NCBI RefSeq assembly: GCF_949769195.1
Contig: NZ_OX458333.1
Location: 2,976,001 to 3,040,000, forward strand
Length of the DNA: 64,000 nucleotides
DNA from: Methylocaldum szegediense
Lineage (GTDB): Bacteria; Pseudomonadota; Gammaproteobacteria; Methylococcales; Methylococcaceae
Direction: 5' to 3'
Shown here: in pieces, positions 2,657 through 10,267 of the stretch
Layout of the letters: every line of letters starts with the position of its first letter
Position numbering within the stretch: position 1 is the first letter of the stretch
Program-made: the position numbers and the translations under genes
The notes under the pieces: generated by a model
Databases searched by the model: none
Told to the model about the DNA's origin: nothing
The model's input: only the letters and a program-made list of their open reading frames with translations

Positions 2657-2856
2657 TTAATGGTCTAGTACCGTGTCATCAAAGATCAGACACCCTTCGG
2701 CGACCGGCATGAACAGTACTTGGATGTTGTCCCAGATCAACCTCGGGATGATCCGTTCCCCCGCAGGTAGCGGTTAATGGTGTCATGGCTGATGTTCTCA
2801 GTATGGTCCGCGAAGTTCGTTAGCGTATAGTTGCTCTGGCTAATCAACAGTGCCAT
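2657..2856 (-). pseudogene. remnant of IS transposase N-terminus (IS701-like)
   Basis: Reading from 2856, the minus strand gives MALLISQSNYTLTNFADH, then ENISHDTINRYLRG. After a frame change it continues RLIWDNIQVLFMPVAEG and CLIFDDTVLDH before a stop. The phrases SHDTINRYL and LIFDDTVLDK-like are characteristic of the N-terminal part of DDE transposases of the IS701/IS4-related group. Only about 65 codons survive, with a frameshift, so it is inactive. It overlaps the last codons of jetD and abuts the HsdM-like fragment. Confidence 0.65.
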
Positions 2857-4036
2857 GTTCCGTCTGCAGCCGATCCAGCGCCATTTCAATCCACCCGAAG
2901 CCGATTCGTTCCTGTTCGAGGCGGAGGGCTGGACGAATGCGGTTGTGGCGGAGGTCGTCGTAAAGCACTTGCTCCTCGCGGGTGAGTTGGGGGAGATCAC
3001 GGCGGACCGGCCGGGGTTCGGTTAACCATTGAGACGAGTGGGCCATGAGGGTTTCGCGGTCCATTAGGAAAGATTCTGTATGGGGAAAATAGGTCCGCAA
3101 TTGGTCCAGGATGGCGAAGCCGTGAGTGTCGATATCGCCCCAGTAGTGGATCGCGCAGCGGTGCAGCCAGGCGGCTTGAGCCAACCTATCGAATCCATAG
3201 CCGGCGCCGAATACGACCATGCTGCGAGGCAGGTTCGGGAAGGCGAGAAAGTTGGTTTCGTTTTCGGTGATGAATACCCGGTCGACTTTGGCGTCCAGCA
3301 GGGCGAAGGTGTCGTGGTCCAGGGTGATGTCCTGGTCGGCGGTGCCGGGAAGCAGGGCGAGTTCGGGATCGAGGATGCGGAATCGAATTCGGACCGGCTT
3401 GTCGCGGAATCCGTAGCGGCGGCAGAACTGGCCGAGGCCGACGGCGTCGGCGTCGAACGCGTCGGGCGGCAGGGTGAGGTCCAGGAGCTCCGACAACACC
3501 GAGCGATGGGTTTCGATGAACTTGGTATGGATGCCCGGAATGTCGATTTGTCGGAGATAAACGCCGGGACGCGGATGGGCCTCTATCCAATCGACGATGT
3601 CGAGGAGCATCGGCCAGCGGTCGGCCAGTTCCAGGGCTTTGAGGGGATATTTGACCAGCCAGGGGAGCACGGCGGGCCGGCGATTCCGGGTGGTCGCCAC
3701 CACTTGGGCAAAGCGCTCGGCGTCGCGGCGTTTTCCGATCAGGGCCAGTGCATCGTCCAGCGTGTCGACCCAGATTTCATCGGGAATCTGGTTCGCCCCG
3801 AGGACGCGGTGCCGCACTTCGCGCATCACCACCCGGTAGTGCGAACCGCGCCTGAGATCGGCGATCCAGCTTCGGACCTGATCGAAACGGTCGGTGAGTT
3901 CGGAGGAAGAAGGTCCCTTGAGCGTGAGTCGGCGCGGGAACACGGTCTCGCCGCCGGCCAGGCTGGCCAGGATCAGTCCTTTGTCCCAAAGTTTTTGTAC
4001 CTGGGCGCGGAGGTCGGCAGGCGTGGTCCAGGTCAT
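2840..4036 (-). CDS. jetD: Wadjet anti-plasmid system nuclease JetD
   Basis: Nuclease subunit of the type I Wadjet system, which cleaves closed-circular plasmid DNA after the SMC-like JetABC complex has extruded it. The 398 residues hold an N-terminal DUF3322 region and a C-terminal DUF2220 topoisomerase-VI-A/Toprim-like region. The Toprim acidic residues are visible: FITENETNFLAF (Glu258/Glu260) and HYWGDIDTHGFAIL (Asp301, Asp303, His305). It is the last gene of the operon but is separated from jetC by about 200 nt holding a palindromic element, unlike the other tightly packed genes. Its last codons overlap a transposase remnant. All key residues are intact, so it is probably functional. Confidence 0.9.
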   Translation of the reverse strand: MTWTTPADLRAQVQKLWDKGLILASLAGGETVFPRRLTLKGPSSSELTDRFDQVRSWIADLRRGSHYRVVMREVRHRVLGANQIPDEIWVDTLDDALALIGKRRDAERFAQVVATTRNRRPAVLPWLVKYPLKALELADRWPMLLDIVDWIEAHPRPGVYLRQIDIPGIHTKFIETHRSVLSELLDLTLPPDAFDADAVGLGQFCRRYGFRDKPVRIRFRILDPELALLPGTADQDITLDHDTFALLDAKVDRVFITENETNFLAFPNLPRSMVVFGAGYGFDRLAQAAWLHRCAIHYWGDIDTHGFAILDQLRTYFPHTESFLMDRETLMAHSSQWLTEPRPVRRDLPQLTREEQVLYDDLRHNRIRPALRLEQERIGFGWIEMALDRLQTEHGTVD

Positions 4037-4234: not shown

Positions 4235-7200
4235 TCATGCCCTGGCCCTCGCCTTTTCCGCGCGATAGTCCTCGATGGTGAGGTTGCGCAGCTTGGAGGC
4301 GCGGCCGTCCTCGTTGTGCACGAAGCCGACGCTGGCAACGAAGGGTTCGATGATGTGGATCTTCTGCAACGGCGTGACGATCAGAAGTTGCAGATTGAGC
4401 TGCTGAAACAGTTTCAATCCGTATTGGGCCGATTCGTCCGAACCGCGGCCGAAGGCTTCGTCGATGACTACGAAGCGGAAGGAACGGGAGCGCACCGCAC
4501 CCCATTCTAGGCCGAACTGGTAGGCCAGGCTGGCGGCCAGAATGGTATAGGCGAGTTTTTCCTTCTGCCCGCCGGATTTGCCCCCGGAGTCGGAATAGTG
4601 CTCGTATTCGGTTCCATCGGCGCGCCAGCGTTCCGAGGCGGCGAAGGTAAACCAGTTGCGAACGTCGGTGACCCGTGCCGTCCAGCGCCGGTCCATCTCG
4701 GCCTGCCCTTCGCGTCCACGGAAACGCTCGATGATCTCCTTCACTTGCAGAAACTTCTCTTCCGAGTACTGTGTATCGTCCGAACCGGTCAACGCGCCTT
4801 CGGTGCATTTGCGCAAGGCGGACTGGAAGTCGCGCAGGTCGTTGTCCTGAGACAACTGCGCTTCCAAAACAATGTAGCGACCGGGGTTGTAGTCGATCTG
4901 ATTGAGCGAGGCGTTGATCTGGGCGATCCGCTCTTTGATGGTCTCCCGCTCGCGGTTCAGCTGCGATTGGAAATTGGCGACCTCACGGATGGTGTTCTCG
5001 TTGAGCAGTTCCTTGAAGCGCGCCTCGAAGCGGGGCAAATCGTCGGCCTCCAGTTTCGCCAGCATCTCGCGGTACTCGTGGGCGGCTTCGATGCTGACGT
5101 CCACGTCCTGGGTCTCCAGCTTGAAAGCGTCCTTGTATTCGGCCATGGCCTTGATGATCTTGTCGCGGAGACGGCTGAGCTTGCCATCCTCCGCATCGAT
5201 GCGTCCCTGCAGCCATTTGCGCATGTCCTGCTCACGCGGGTCGCAGTTTTCGACTTCGAGACGATGTTCGCCCAGGGCTTCCGCACGCATCGCATCCAGT
5301 AACGGGAAGTTGGCCGTGTGGACGGCATTAGCCGGATCGTCGAGCATGGCTTGGATTTGCGCGCGCAAAGCCTCGGCATCGTTCCTCCTCTGTTCGGCTC
5401 GCGCTCGATCGTCCCTGCGTTCGATGAGCCGGCGTTCGGTTTCTTCCAGAGCGAGCACCACGGCGTTCAACCGCTCGCCGAGTTGCTTGAGCACGTCCGA
5501 GGCCGCTTCGAGCCGGCGTTTTTCATCTTGCAGCCGGGCTACTTCGCTCGCCAGGGGACGCCAGTCGAGTTCGCGGAAGTCGCGGTAGACCTCGAGTTTG
5601 GACAGCGTTGTGAGCCGCGCGCGGATCGCCTTTTGTTCGGCGTCAAGCGCGGCGAGGCGGCTACCCAGTTCGCCCAGCCGGGTTTCGAGCTGCCTTGCCC
5701 TGGATTCGAGGGCCGCGATCTTGGCGGCATTGGACCAGCCGAGCACGTAGCGGCTACGGTCGTCCAAGCGATGCCGGTCGTCTTTTTCGTGGCGTTCGCC
5801 GGGTGCCTTGATCTGGCCGGCGCGGGTAATGGCCTTGGGCTCGCGACGGAATTGTTCCTGCGTGACGCAGCAGGCGTAGTCGAAACGGTGGGCGAGCTCG
5901 CGTTCCAGCCAGTCGTAAAAGACCGAATCGGGTTTGACGGCGAGCTTGTGCACCAGCGAGTCGGAGTGAAGACTGGGTAGCTCGCCGCGCTGGCTCTCCC
6001 TCACTCGGAAGTAAACCAGCCGTCCTTTGAGATGGGTGCGGTCCACCCACTCCGCGACCCGAGTGTAATACACGTCCGGTACCAACATGGACAGGCCGAA
6101 ATTGCGCAGCAGGCGTTCCGCCGCCCCCTCCCATTCGCGCTCCTCTTCGCGCACTTGGATCAGCTCGCCCGCAAAAGGCATCTCGTCCTCGGACAGGTTC
6201 AGCGCCTGGCACAGCGCGGCGCGCATGGCAATCTGCTGGGCGTCGATATTACTGCGGCGGGCCTTCAGGCTCTCGATCTCATCCATCAGAGCCTTGTGTT
6301 CCTCCCGGCCTTGGGCGAAGGCAAAGTGCACCTCGTTTTGCTCGTTCTGGAGTTCCGCTTCGCGGGCTTCGGTTTGCTCCTTCAAGGCGGCGAATTCGCG
6401 TTGCTGGGCGAGAAAGGCGTCGTCGTCTTCGGGCGGAACAAGCCCCAAGGAGCGCACCAACTCGGCGTAATCCTCGGCTTTCTTGCGCCGCCGAGCCTGT
6501 TCTTCCTCTTTCTGGCAGATTTCCTCGCGAATGCGCTCGATGCGGTCGCCGCCGTTCTCGGCGATGCTGCGCCGAAGTTCCCTCTCTTCGGCCTGCTGCC
6601 CTTGCTTTCGTTCTTCCAGCCGCGCCACCTGCGTATTGAGTCGCACCAGTTCGTTGTCGAGCGCAGCGATGCGTTTTTCCAGCAAACCGAGTTTCAGACG
6701 CGCGAAATAAGGCTTCAACGCCTCGCGGCAAGCGCGCAGTTCCTCGCAGCGAGCGGCGATTTCCGTATACCGGTCGCAATCGGCCACCAGCGGCGTGAGC
6801 AGTTCCACCTGGCGCTTCGCCTTGAGCACCGCTTCATGGGCGCGGTTGAGGTCGTCGAAGTGAGCGATCAGGGCGGTGATGCGCGGGGCGACATCGAAGG
6901 GCTCCAGCATGTGGCTGCGCACGAAATCGGTCAGATTCCCCACCGATTTCATCGAGACGGTTTGGTGAAACAGTTCCAGCGCCTGTTCGTTGTCGATGCC
7001 GAAGCGGCGGCGGAACCAGGCGCCATACGGCGGGAAGCTGTCGAAGATTTCGACGCCCGAGTTGCGCAACCGTTTGCGCAAGGCACCTATGTCCGAGCCG
7101 AAATGGGCGAAGTCCTGAGCGATGGAGAGCGCGCGTTCGGCGCCGACGAAAAAGCGCGCAGGTTGTCCCTGCGGCTCTTTCATCCAGAAGACCTGGGCCA

Positions 7201-7600
7201 GGGTCACTGTCTGATCGTAGCCGGCGTTATGAAACACGCCGAGAATGACCGAGTAGCTGTTGTGATCGCGTAGCGCGACTGGCTTGGCGGAGCCGGTCGT
7301 GTCGCTGCGCTCGGACTTGTAATAGCCCAGCACGTAGGAGCGCAGCGTGCGCTCCTTGGCGTCGGCCCCGGCCGCCTTGTTGTAGGCGATGCGATGGGCC
7401 GGCACCAGCAGCGTGGTCACTGCGTCGACCAGGGTGGATTTGCCGGAACCGATATCACCGGTGAGCAAGGCATTCTTACCGTCGAGATGCAGCGTCCACA
7501 CCCGGCCATCGAAAGTACCCCAGTTGAATACTTCCAGGCGGTGCAGGCGGTAGCCGGTGAGCGTGTCGTCTCCGGTGAAATCCAGACTCAGCGTTTCCAA
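4235..7600 (-). CDS. jetC: Wadjet system SMC-like ATPase JetC
   Basis: Motor of the Wadjet condensin-like complex (COG4913/MukB-like), which loops plasmid DNA using ATP. The 1121 residues show Walker A GDIGSGKST (48-56), two long coiled-coil arms rich in Glu/Arg/Ala (about 260-420 and 610-960) around a hinge. They also show the ABC signature SGGQKEKLAY (from 1009) and Walker B FRFVVIDEAFGRG (IDE at about 1046-1048). It starts 5 nt after the stop of the small gene upstream, so translational coupling is likely. There is no frameshift or missing ATPase motif. Confidence 0.93.
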   Translation of the reverse strand: METLSLDFTGDDTLTGYRLHRLEVFNWGTFDGRVWTLHLDGKNALLTGDIGSGKSTLVDAVTTLLVPAHRIAYNKAAGADAKERTLRSYVLGYYKSERSDTTGSAKPVALRDHNSYSVILGVFHNAGYDQTVTLAQVFWMKEPQGQPARFFVGAERALSIAQDFAHFGSDIGALRKRLRNSGVEIFDSFPPYGAWFRRRFGIDNEQALELFHQTVSMKSVGNLTDFVRSHMLEPFDVAPRITALIAHFDDLNRAHEAVLKAKRQVELLTPLVADCDRYTEIAARCEELRACREALKPYFARLKLGLLEKRIAALDNELVRLNTQVARLEERKQGQQAEERELRRSIAENGGDRIERIREEICQKEEEQARRRKKAEDYAELVRSLGLVPPEDDDAFLAQQREFAALKEQTEAREAELQNEQNEVHFAFAQGREEHKALMDEIESLKARRSNIDAQQIAMRAALCQALNLSEDEMPFAGELIQVREEEREWEGAAERLLRNFGLSMLVPDVYYTRVAEWVDRTHLKGRLVYFRVRESQRGELPSLHSDSLVHKLAVKPDSVFYDWLERELAHRFDYACCVTQEQFRREPKAITRAGQIKAPGERHEKDDRHRLDDRSRYVLGWSNAAKIAALESRARQLETRLGELGSRLAALDAEQKAIRARLTTLSKLEVYRDFRELDWRPLASEVARLQDEKRRLEAASDVLKQLGERLNAVVLALEETERRLIERRDDRARAEQRRNDAEALRAQIQAMLDDPANAVHTANFPLLDAMRAEALGEHRLEVENCDPREQDMRKWLQGRIDAEDGKLSRLRDKIIKAMAEYKDAFKLETQDVDVSIEAAHEYREMLAKLEADDLPRFEARFKELLNENTIREVANFQSQLNRERETIKERIAQINASLNQIDYNPGRYIVLEAQLSQDNDLRDFQSALRKCTEGALTGSDDTQYSEEKFLQVKEIIERFRGREGQAEMDRRWTARVTDVRNWFTFAASERWRADGTEYEHYSDSGGKSGGQKEKLAYTILAASLAYQFGLEWGAVRSRSFRFVVIDEAFGRGSDESAQYGLKLFQQLNLQLLIVTPLQKIHIIEPFVASVGFVHNEDGRASKLRNLTIEDYRAEKARARA

Positions 7601-7605
7601 AACTG

Positions 7606-7854
7606 TCAGGCCGTCGCTTCTTTCCGCTTAGGCCGCAGCAATTGTTTTTCCAGATCGATATCCGCTAATCCGATTTCGGCCGGATCGACTCCTAGCAACT
7701 CGGCTTGTTCCTTGGCGATGTTCAAGACGTCGTAGTACGCCATGGCCAGGCCTTTGTCGAATTCCCGCTCGCCGCGAGCAGCTTCCGCACCGTGTTCTTT
7801 GGCCGCGTTCACGATTTCCTCGAGTATTACTTGCAAGTCGATTCTATTTGCCAC
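7606..7854 (-). CDS. small protein embedded in Wadjet operon (82 aa)
   Basis: Unrecognised 82-residue acidic, mostly helical protein beginning MANRIDLQVILEEIV. A possible core helix is KGLAMAYYDVLNIAKEQAEL (49-68 approximately); the tail is LLRPKRKEATA. Its ATG overlaps the preceding small gene by 11 nt and its stop is 5 nt before jetC, so it is an integral cistron of the Wadjet operon. No DNA-binding, catalytic or membrane motif is visible. It could be an adaptor, an assembly factor or an immunity-type regulator of the complex; none of these is shown. Confidence 0.8.
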   Translation of the reverse strand: MANRIDLQVILEEIVNAAKEHGAEAARGEREFDKGLAMAYYDVLNIAKEQAELLGVDPAEIGLADIDLEKQLLRPKRKEATA

Positions 7855-8188
7855 GTCTGCGTTCCTCCAAGATTCCGATCATGATGTCCCGCTCCTCTTC
7901 CAAGCGGAGAATATCGGCCGGCCACTTTCGCTTCACGAGATAATCGATTTCGATATCGCTCAGTTCGTTGCTGACCGTCAGCGTTGGATCGATGATCCAG
8001 GCGCGATGCTCCTCGATGCGTTTATTGTACGTCCGAATCGCGCGCTCTATGAGGTGATCGGGATCGTTTCTGTAGCGTTTCAGCAAACCGGCGTGCTTCT
8101 TTCCTGCTTTTGCTTCTTGATAAGCTTTGCTGACCTGGGTGGCGGTGTCCGTAACCGCTTTTCCATCACCAAACGTAGTTTCATTCAT
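7844..8188 (-). CDS. small protein embedded in Wadjet operon (114 aa)
   Basis: Unrecognised 114-residue charged protein beginning MNETTFGDGKAVTDTATQ, with a basic middle (KKHAGLLKRYRNDPDHLIER) and an acidic/basic helical end (DILRLEEERDIMIGILEERR). The chosen ATG at 8188 overlaps the jetB stop by 8 nt. A 16-residue longer reading inside jetB is possible but less economical. The gene overlaps the next small cistron by 11 nt. The packing jetA-jetB-this-next-jetC argues for co-translation with the Wadjet proteins. Function is unknown; it does not look like the canonical JetA-D domains. Confidence 0.8.
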   Translation of the reverse strand: MNETTFGDGKAVTDTATQVSKAYQEAKAGKKHAGLLKRYRNDPDHLIERAIRTYNKRIEEHRAWIIDPTLTVSNELSDIEIDYLVKRKWPADILRLEEERDIMIGILEERRRGK

Positions 8189-8822
8189 CGCCTTGGTAAT
8201 CCTGCCGGTTTTCGAGCAACAGCGCCTTGTAGGCATCCAGTCGCTGATCGAATTCCGCCAGCCACTGCGCGTCGATGAAGGCTTTGAGGATGCGGCGCAC
8301 CTCGAACATCGCCTCCTGTCCGGCAGCTGTCTTCAGACGCCGCAGGAAGCCGAGCTCCACAATCTTGTTGAGATGCGCGTCGACCTGGTCGATCAGTCTG
8401 GCCTCGTTGCTGCCTTCGGGTAGGAACACGCGGATTAACTCGACCGCCTCGCTACGTGAGATTACCTGGCGGGTGTCGCTGCCGCTGGCGTCGAATTCGG
8501 CCAGTTTCTTGCGGAGCAGCGCTAGCAGCAGGCTGACCGGGAAAGAAAGCGGGCGCCGAGCAATCAGACGCGGCGTCTTGGCCTTGGCCTCGTCCTCGTC
8601 GTCGGCACGCGAGCGTAGGAAGGCGTAGCCTTCGGCTTCGTCCAGCATCAGCTCCAGCCCGAGCACGGCCACGTAGTCGCGCACGCGGCCTTGGAGATTG
8701 AGCAGCGCGTTCCACAGCGCGGGATCGCTTTCCTGGTAAATCACGCCTTTCAGCAGCGGCACCACTACAGCCGAGAGCTCGGGCGCGGCGTTGTTCGACG
8801 TTTCGATGTCTTGTTCCGTCAT
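8181..8822 (-). CDS. jetB: Wadjet system subunit JetB (DUF4194)
   Basis: 213-residue DUF4194 protein, the MukE/kite-like accessory subunit that bridges the JetA kleisin and the JetC ATPase. Winged-helix-like helices are visible around VSLLLALLRKKLAEFD (96-111) and in the segment around HLNKIVELGFLRRL, a typical recognition-helix and wing pattern. It starts 2 nt after the jetA stop and its stop overlaps the next small gene. Position in the operon and length agree with type I Wadjet. Confidence 0.88.
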   Translation of the reverse strand: MTEQDIETSNNAAPELSAVVVPLLKGVIYQESDPALWNALLNLQGRVRDYVAVLGLELMLDEAEGYAFLRSRADDEDEAKAKTPRLIARRPLSFPVSLLLALLRKKLAEFDASGSDTRQVISRSEAVELIRVFLPEGSNEARLIDQVDAHLNKIVELGFLRRLKTAAGQEAMFEVRRILKAFIDAQWLAEFDQRLDAYKALLLENRQDYQGDE

Positions 8823-8824
8823 CC

Positions 8825-10267
8825 TTATCTCACAAAAATCACTCGCGGCAGCCGGGCTTGTTTCATGCTTCCGTCGTCGTACTGCCAGACGATGATCTCG
8901 GTTACCTCTTCGTCCACCACGGACTTGAAGGTTTCACTCGCGAGTTGCAAGTAGGCAATCAGTTCAGCTAGGCCCTGCTTCAAGGGGTATTTCTCGCACA
9001 GCTCGCGCAAGGTGATTTGCGAGCGTTCCTGCAAGGCATGGCGGATGTGGCGCGACAGGGCCGTTTTGTTGACCACCACCTGGGAGAACAGCGCAGCGGC
9101 GTCCACTTCGGCGTCGCCCGTTTCCAGCACTAGATCGGCGATGCGCGGCTTGATTGGGGGAACATAAAGCGGCCTTTCCATGGGCAGCTCGATAGTCGCG
9201 GCAGTATCGGCGACAGTCATGATGTCGCCCGCGGGCGGCGAGTCGCGCAGTTCTAGCGCCTTGGCCTCGATGTTGCGGAGGATATCCATGATGCGCCGGT
9301 TTTCGAGCCAGGCTTTGTCGTCCAAAAAACGTCGCAACTGCTGCGAAAGCTGGGCGACCGTGCGCTGGGTGTGCTCGCCCGCTTCCAGCCAGTCGTAGTG
9401 AATGCGACGGATGCGAGCGTCCGGCCGAAGTTCGGCTACCGGCGGCAGGCTCAGTACCCGGTCCAGCAATTCCGTCAGCTCCTCCTGGCGGCGGCTGGAC
9501 ATGAGGAAGTCCCAGAAGGCTCGGAAGCTTCGGCCCTGATCCGAGCCGGCGATGGCGTCGCGCTCACCCATGATCTCTTCCAGTAGGGCTCCCTTGCCGC
9601 CGTCCCACAGCGCGATACGCTCCCGGACCCGACGGTCCAGCGCGCGGAAATTGTGTTCGACTTCGCGGAAATCGGTGAGGAGTTCGCGGGCCAGCGCCAT
9701 AAACTGCTGAAAGCGGTCCTTCAGCGCCGTGTCGTCCAGCAGCGGGATGTCGCCGGACTGGACGCGCGCAATCTCGGCGTCGATCTCGTCGCGACGCCTC
9801 TTAAGTTCCGCGATGCGCGCCTCGGGATTAGTTTCGGAGCCTTCGCTCATCTGCCTGAGCAGTTCGAACAAGGTAAGCAGCCGCGATTCGGTGCCGACGA
9901 AGGTTCGTTCAGTCAGCGTGCCCAGCCAGGCGATCGCTTTTTCGGTGGACGGTGTCAGATCGAAATGCGGTTCATCCGAGCCTTGTACGTAAAACTTGCG
10001 CAGCCAGGCTTTGTCGTTGCCGGCCCAATCGTTCAGGTATTCGTGCGCAGACTTAGGAAATGCTTCCTCACCCAGCCGCTCGCGCAGTCCGAACAGCTCG
10101 TCCTCCAACGCTTCCACTAGATCCGACTGCGCCATCACCCGCACATTGGGTGCGATGAACACCCGATGCAGAAAACTCGCCACTAGCGGCGCATGATCCG
10201 AGCGCAGCAAGCGCCAGGCCGGGTGGTTTTGCCGAAGGAGGTCGAGGGTGGCGTAATCGAGGCTCAT
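8825..10267 (-). CDS. jetA: Wadjet system kleisin-like subunit JetA (DUF3375)
   Basis: First gene of the Wadjet operon. 480-residue DUF3375 protein, the MukF/kleisin-like component that closes the SMC ring. The N-terminus YATLDLLRQNHPAWRLLRSD and the segment ALEDELFGLRERLGEEAFPK are family-typical. A helical middle region (about 165-340) is followed by a C-terminal winged-helix part (VNKTALSRHIRHALQE, then ITLRELCEKYPLKQGLAELI). There is no obvious promoter motif, but about 100 nt upstream are free for one. It lies convergently away from nothing; the next gene upstream, RNase T2, points the same way. Confidence 0.88.
   Translation of the reverse strand: MSLDYATLDLLRQNHPAWRLLRSDHAPLVASFLHRVFIAPNVRVMAQSDLVEALEDELFGLRERLGEEAFPKSAHEYLNDWAGNDKAWLRKFYVQGSDEPHFDLTPSTEKAIAWLGTLTERTFVGTESRLLTLFELLRQMSEGSETNPEARIAELKRRRDEIDAEIARVQSGDIPLLDDTALKDRFQQFMALARELLTDFREVEHNFRALDRRVRERIALWDGGKGALLEEIMGERDAIAGSDQGRSFRAFWDFLMSSRRQEELTELLDRVLSLPPVAELRPDARIRRIHYDWLEAGEHTQRTVAQLSQQLRRFLDDKAWLENRRIMDILRNIEAKALELRDSPPAGDIMTVADTAATIELPMERPLYVPPIKPRIADLVLETGDAEVDAAALFSQVVVNKTALSRHIRHALQERSQITLRELCEKYPLKQGLAELIAYLQLASETFKSVVDEEVTEIIVWQYDDGSMKQARLPRVIFVR

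Follow-up and report, generated by a model that had tools for sequence, protein, structure and literature searches.

The type I Wadjet system is reportedly made up of four genes, jetA, jetB, jetC and jetD; this canonical description is said to be that of Doron et al. in 2018, and it agrees with the PADLOC models. Other described systems are also relevant here. In the MuF toxins of temperate phages a small gene follows 89.4% of 191 muf toxin genes, according to PMC5576092. Polymorphic toxin systems have been described as also including toxin cassettes that stand alone (PMC3482391), and PMC3150448 is a related source for RHS/HINT polymorphic toxins and stand-alone toxin/immunity cassettes. We will describe a locus of Methylocaldum szegediense in which features of these systems meet. 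The whole stretch analysed, a 64,000 nt portion of contig NZ_OX458333.1, will be called the window. It contains a complete Wadjet operon with two additional small genes, s1 and s2, between jetB and jetC. We hold with good confidence that they are an orphan toxin/immunity cassette of the polymorphic toxin type, recently inserted at this place, and that they are not subunits of Wadjet.

All the genes of the operon are found on the minus strand. The genes jetA (DUF3375, 8825-10267), jetB (DUF4194, 8181-8822), jetC (SMC-like, 4235-7600) and jetD (DUF3322 + JetD_C, 2840-4036) are intact, and the four proteins match their own families strongly in Pfam and PADLOC (the JetC1 model at 1714 bits). The four families are together in one operon, which is the definition of a type I Wadjet. 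The first small gene, s1 (7844-8188, 114 aa), has its ATG at 8188, within the final bases of jetB, and a longer frame with a start at 8236 is also possible. The second one, s2 (7606-7854, 82 aa), a putative immunity or antitoxin gene, has a GTG start at 7854. The spacings are +2 nt between jetA and jetB, -8 between jetB and s1, -11 between s1 and s2 and +5 between s2 and jetC; a first-pass annotation, made from the letters alone, had given exactly the same values. A single message with translational coupling is probable, given that the start of s1 falls within the end of jetB, that s1 and s2 share 11 nt and that only 5 nt separate s2 from jetC. The placement of the genes thus supports another proposal of that annotation: jetB, s1, s2 and jetC are probably co-translated.

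The origin of the additional genes becomes apparent in a comparison with three further genomes of the same genus (G827, G828 and G829). Two of them, G827 and G829, have the same Wadjet operon, in loci L150 and L151. The identity to the window is 94.6% for JetA, 93.0% for JetB, 96.3% for JetC and 89.5% for JetD in L150, and 93.1, 90.1, 93.8 and 88.7% respectively in L151. Both operons lack s1 and s2, and in both of them jetB directly overlaps jetC. By the ends of the BLASTN match, the stop of jetB and the start of jetC are separated by 2 nt in L150 but by 581 nt in the window (7600-8180, minus strand). The left edge of this stretch is the jetB stop codon; its right edge is the jetC start, which is TTG in the window versus the second ATG in L150 and L151. 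The ATG of s1, in the last bases of jetB, stands in the place of the jetC ATG of these two relatives. In the third genome, G828, there is a distant Wadjet (JetA 29%), whose jetB and jetC are contiguous, and elsewhere a jetA fragment with 90.6% identity (L159, L161). The operon region of G827 has a peculiarity of its own: a piece from the 3' part of jetD is repeated further along, with 86% identity (L150:9849-10138, reverse complement).

The inserted stretch also differs in composition: its G+C is about 0.53, as compared with 0.61-0.62 in jetA, jetB and jetC, and its GC3 is 0.61-0.62, as compared with 0.76-0.78 in the jet genes. It contains no transposase gene, and a search of its edges found no direct or inverted repeat which brackets it; three short repeats, internal or half-internal, were taken as chance. 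None of the four Jet genes of the window is interrupted, and their dN/dS values against L150 and L151 are 0.06-0.22; such values show purifying selection since the lineages split and say nothing on function after the insertion. From these sequence comparisons it appears that the insertion of s1 and s2 between jetB and jetC is probably recent. The tight packing and likely co-translation could also be taken as signs that s1 and s2 are accessory subunits, chaperones or regulators of Wadjet, but they are absent from these operons of the same genus, which are 90-96% identical in JetA, JetB and JetC.

A wider survey of Wadjet loci leads in the same direction. We searched for JetA (DUF3375) in 369 genomes of the class, 38 of the family and 398 of the phylum, and found a match in 42, 12 and 41 of them (the genome of the window included). 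JetA was also sought in nine genomes with s1-type matches, among which G656 is weak. The loci examined, apart from the window, are 83: 82 from the samples (37 class, 13 family and 32 phylum) and L194, the Wadjet of G751. Matches below the family cut-off were left out, as were G197:C25, G159:C69, G179:C120 and G616:C25; a few genomes contribute two loci, and several loci are incomplete because they reach the end of a contig. jetB and jetC are paired in 73 of the 82 loci, a number which falls to 72 because the jetC match of L044 is its jetA frame and the pairing is false. All of these junctions but one are contiguous (71/72, from -101 to +103 nt), including that of L185, where jetC seems to be split; the remaining one, L046, contains 2.9 kb. 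Together with L194, which is also contiguous, there are 73 readable junctions.

When the 83 other type I Wadjet loci were searched in six frames with profiles, every one of them was negative for both s1 and s2. The same search detects the window and L113 at E < 1e-28, as expected, because both sequences are in the profiles. Short matches of s2 in antisense frames of L150 and L153 had been seen before; they are absent from this later search and were rejected as chance. The first-pass annotation had seen in s1 and s2 a candidate for an undescribed variant of Wadjet and had proposed to count their homologues between jetB and jetC: the count is 0/83, with the junction readable in 73 loci. This is the outcome, absence from other Wadjet loci, which the annotation itself had named as refuting its idea. 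The two genes are not conserved with Wadjet loci as subunits of the system should be, and their homologues are tied to polymorphic toxins and to a prophage head protein. It is thus highly improbable that they are subunits, chaperones or regulators of Wadjet, and the idea of a Wadjet variant is not supported by the comparison with the closely similar operons of the same genus. A search of the PMC literature by title gave no article on genes similar to s1 and s2 or on toxin-antitoxin (TA) insertion in Wadjet operons, which is weak evidence of absence.

Other genes were found in the surveyed operons. One family of the phylum sample (f207) has a recurrent gene of 187-251 aa between jetA and jetB (L176:1628-2188, L168:1654-2397, L181:7499-8254 and L185:7717-8280), with homologous pieces in L171 and L175, so that six of the 83 loci match. 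It had no Pfam match in the two members tested. We consider this gene a better candidate than s1 and s2 for a lineage-specific accessory gene of Wadjet. A Uma2-like gene is found between jetA and jetB in L045:2978-3385, and an AlbA_2/HATPase_c_4 protein between jetC and jetD in L168:6376-7785.

The nature of s1 is best appreciated from its homologues, which are found at the C-terminus of several unlike carrier proteins, in the position of a toxin tip. In a plasmid of Leptospira weilii a protein with an RHS core and a pretoxin HINT domain has s1 as its C-terminus (tblastn E 3e-3); a family member from L083 used as query finds the same place at E 1e-20, and the gene next to the RHS-HINT protein matches s2. 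In a Methylomicrobium prophage a head-morphogenesis/minor-head protein of 486 aa ends in s1; it is followed by an s2 gene and has a terminase upstream. We read this head protein as MuF-like from its PHROG matches; it is also represented by an IMG/VR contig. In a Simkania plasmid s1 is the C-terminus of a protein with TPR repeats, with an s2-like gene adjoining; the piece of this protein across the origin of the record begins, in our reading, like a signal peptide. The last carrier is a 799-aa protein (L114:5031-7430) which ends in s1 and has no Pfam, NCBIfam or PHROG match. The gene ahead of it, at a distance of 11 nt, encodes an 899-aa protein with a HerA/DUF87-like match. Searches of phage records with three queries gave no match. 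Since s1 is found at the extreme C-termini of RHS/HINT and MuF proteins, with s2 behind it, we read the two genes as a toxin domain and its immunity protein, and not as the accessory subunits or chaperones which had been suggested for them.

In other loci, too, s2 has the arrangement of an immunity gene: it is a small gene directly downstream of s1, and it is retained or duplicated where s1 decays. In L009 there is a stop inside s1 and s2 is kept, whereas in L086, from a genome of Rhabdochlamydiaceae, s1 is a remnant and s2 is doubled; this is as expected of immunity genes. In one set of 16 loci s2 adjoins s1 in 15, the exception being L121, the weak match of G656; a second piece of s1 is found without s2 in L119. 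Both genes are joined in a single open frame in L083:1023-1616 (a genome of Syntrophomonadaceae), and in L084 (Methylococcaceae) a stand-alone pair is found ahead of a phage virion-morphogenesis gene. It is unlikely that s1 and s2 are chance reading frames, judging from the homologous pairs which occur in other genomes in the same order and usually overlapping. The first-pass annotation had called them unrecognised genes, and they are indeed real and unrecognised: even at E values up to 1, Pfam and NCBIfam give no match for either of them, and PHROG gives none below E 0.2.

The search was extended to 22 members of the s1 family, but no described toxin domain family was matched in Pfam (best E only 0.0011). 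The most frequent model is DUF4635, which appears in four members with a best E of 0.002. There is no recognised toxin or antitoxin family for s1 or s2 by which they could be placed among type II toxin-antitoxin modules. Two weak PADLOC matches of s1 were obtained, with E 0.003 and 0.03; the first one, PDC-M13B, was dropped, as only one of the 22 members matches it, equally weakly. Only His61 and Trp89 (numbering of the window) are invariant in the 22 members, and no catalytic motif is evident in s1. The predicted model of s1, built on five aligned sequences, is confident and all-helical (mean pLDDT 85.5, pTM 0.73), with helices in residues 21-27, 33-39, 44-66 and 78-113 and a disordered region in residues 1-16; as far as s1 is concerned, this prediction bears out its earlier description as strongly helical. 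A profile search of the PDB gave no convincing relative of s1. The matches with vinculin (E 0.03) and with a designed helical repeat (E 3e-5), no stretch of which passes on its own, were taken as helical chance.

The simple helical model, the absence of a catalytic motif and the lack of a match to known toxin families would also fit a different role, in which s1 is a tip domain for trafficking or structure and s2 acts as its chaperone. However, the places of s1 behind HINT and at the end of a phage head protein are those of the toxins in polymorphic toxin systems. The small gene which comes after it is also found after most muf toxin genes, in the proportion quoted above (PMC5576092), and stand-alone pairs without any carrier protein are frequent. 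We judge a tip domain with its chaperone to be quite improbable, and continue with the reading of s1 and s2 as toxin and immunity genes.

The family of s1 and s2 is rare and patchy. A search with the single protein at E 0.01 gave s1 matches in five of 369 genomes of the class, two of which (L004 and L005) are weak and were left out of the family. A profile search at E 1e-4 gave matches in 3/266 genomes of the class; another, in the phylum, gave two among 398 genomes, one of them weak. The weak match of G656 (E 9e-4) was left out of the family. In Competibacteraceae, the family of G199, profile searches gave matches in 7/39 genomes, and in Methylococcaceae, the family of the window, in 5/38. 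Stand-alone pairs are scattered in these two families, and G751 has four copies and a partial fifth one. This rarity, together with the decay of s1 in L009 and L086, could be understood if the pair were an inert passenger, either because s1 has lost its activity or because both genes are left over, without effect, from prophage or polymorphic-toxin DNA. In the window, on the contrary, both frames are intact and of full length, and s1 keeps the invariant His and Trp. An inert passenger is in our opinion unlikely.

The closest relative that we found is L113 in G751, with 60% identity in s1 over 96 columns (support 99/95) and 59% in s2; it adjoins an NTase/HEPN pair. The Wadjet of this genome, L194, is on another contig and has neither s1 nor s2. 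The same is true of G829, from the genus of the window, where a pair and a Wadjet are both present on different contigs. The pair therefore moves independently of Wadjet. Stand-alone pairs are found 11-39 nt after genes which we read as galU-like, ruvX-like and argA-like, although s1 is broken in the pair after the ruvX-like gene. In L118:849-1392 the pair is placed between a DNA methylase (15 nt) and a ResIII gene (0 nt), a second capture of s1 and s2, this time inside a probable restriction operon. In L116 it comes just before genes of methylase/ResIII type and in L145 it adjoins type I restriction genes; in others of the 19 neighbourhood loci the pair is further from its neighbours or beside genes of the opposite strand. 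Tight junctions of this kind are thus also seen outside Wadjet.

Two further possibilities of mobility were considered and rejected. The methylases of L116 and L118 share only a stretch of 57 residues and their res genes do not match, so no empty site is claimed for these type III restriction genes. Beside the s1/s2 copy of G829 there is an integron integrase (L146:4989-5813) which matches its model from position 41 on and is possibly truncated. No attC-like site was found by eye next to this copy and its flanks carry a repeated stretch; we did not retain a gene cassette of an integron as an explanation.

The history of the locus could then be as follows. The cassette, in effect a toxin-antitoxin pair, would have entered a complete type I Wadjet operon precisely at the junction of jetB and jetC, and the start of s1 would have come to lie around the stop of jetB, where jetC begins in the relatives. 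The product of s1 would be a helical toxin of small size which acts in the cytosol and is neutralised by s2. A cell which lost the cassette would also lose this protection; in this way the cassette, a hitch-hiker in the defence operon, might ensure its own persistence in the chromosome and, secondarily, that of the surrounding operon. The pair may have undergone some adaptation to the operon.

A related proposal, which overlaps with ours and differs in the reason for keeping the pair, is that it acts as a guard or addiction module. The pair would be kept because it protects Wadjet, a costly anti-plasmid system which is thereby retained: a lower expression or a loss of the operon would leave the toxin unneutralised and harm the cell, by analogy with CreTA, which guards CRISPR-Cas. 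The position of the pair inside the operon with overlapping frames is in accordance with a guard, and four of the 83 further Wadjet loci likewise have genes of TA type within or next to the operon. In L046:3503-6380, between jetB and jetC, there are two nucleotidyltransferase genes, and behind each of them stands a gene with a weak likeness to NTase_sub_bind, below the cut-off of that family. An NTase and an NTase_sub_bind gene, above cut-off, lie between jetA and jetB in L182:7631-8367, and the jetA of this locus has an internal stop. Directly after the jetB of L050 (3694-5397) we find a Phd-type antitoxin and a HigB-like toxin above cut-off, together with a RelE-like protein which falls short of its cut-off; no jetC is seen before the end of this contig. 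Finally, L044:1-415 has a Phd-type antitoxin directly after jetB, at a contig end.

These cases may leave room for a guarding role, yet they also fit an ordinary accumulation in defence loci. As TA genes commonly accompany defence islands as passengers, finding them repeatedly does not have to reflect selection. Of the four cases, three (L044, L046 and L050) come from a single family, f12, jetC is not seen in two of them, and the jetA of L182 is interrupted. Furthermore, s1 and s2 are found in the Wadjet of one genome only, while Wadjets of the same genus persist without them, and the other copies of the pair that we examined stand outside Wadjet operons. Seven of the nine genomes with s1-type matches have no jetA over cut-off, G751 apart, and G786 has only a match below it. 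We consider a guard rather unlikely. It is also doubtful that Wadjet operons repeatedly capture TA or toxin/immunity cassettes at their internal junctions and that such captures guard the defence. If this were true, the loss or silencing of an anti-plasmid operon would be lethal once a cassette is inside, and the window would be its newest step, in which the toxin tip of phage heads and RHS proteins has become a translationally coupled guard of Wadjet.

With the cassette as our preferred explanation, the finding is ordinary in kind but informative. The comparison with the empty site removes the false lead of two new Wadjet subunits. Instead, s1 and s2 form a toxin/immunity-like family which is new to the libraries used, outside our copies of Pfam, NCBIfam and PHROG, and whose members occur in cellular operons, in a prophage head protein and in RHS/HINT toxins. 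The finding also raises the question whether TA cassettes in defence operons merely hitch-hike or lock the defence in place.

We can now return to the known systems. The host operon is a complete and typical type I Wadjet JetABCD, from which the window differs by the s1/s2 pair, present in none of the 83 other loci. Type II TA modules resemble the pair by their two small overlapping genes, their patchy distribution, sometimes in several copies, and the vicinity of some copies to NTase/HEPN or restriction genes; s1 and s2 differ by the order with the toxin first, by the lack of a recognised family and by their kinship with polymorphic-toxin and phage-head tips. CreTA guards of CRISPR-Cas are also toxin-antitoxin units tied to a defence locus (PMC10097628), whereas s1 and s2 presumably act protein to protein, have no known regulation by the defence complex and are found there in a single genome. 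The RHS/HINT toxins are closer, since s1 is the C-terminus of the Leptospira weilii RHS-HINT protein with s2 adjoining; the pair of the window differs by sitting inside Wadjet and by having no Pfam, NCBIfam or PHROG family for either gene. The MuF toxins (PMC5576092) show the same arrangement as the Methylomicrobium prophage, with s1 at the C-terminus of a head protein and then the s2 gene. In the window the carrier part is absent, and the tip and its partner are found alone in a chromosomal defence operon.
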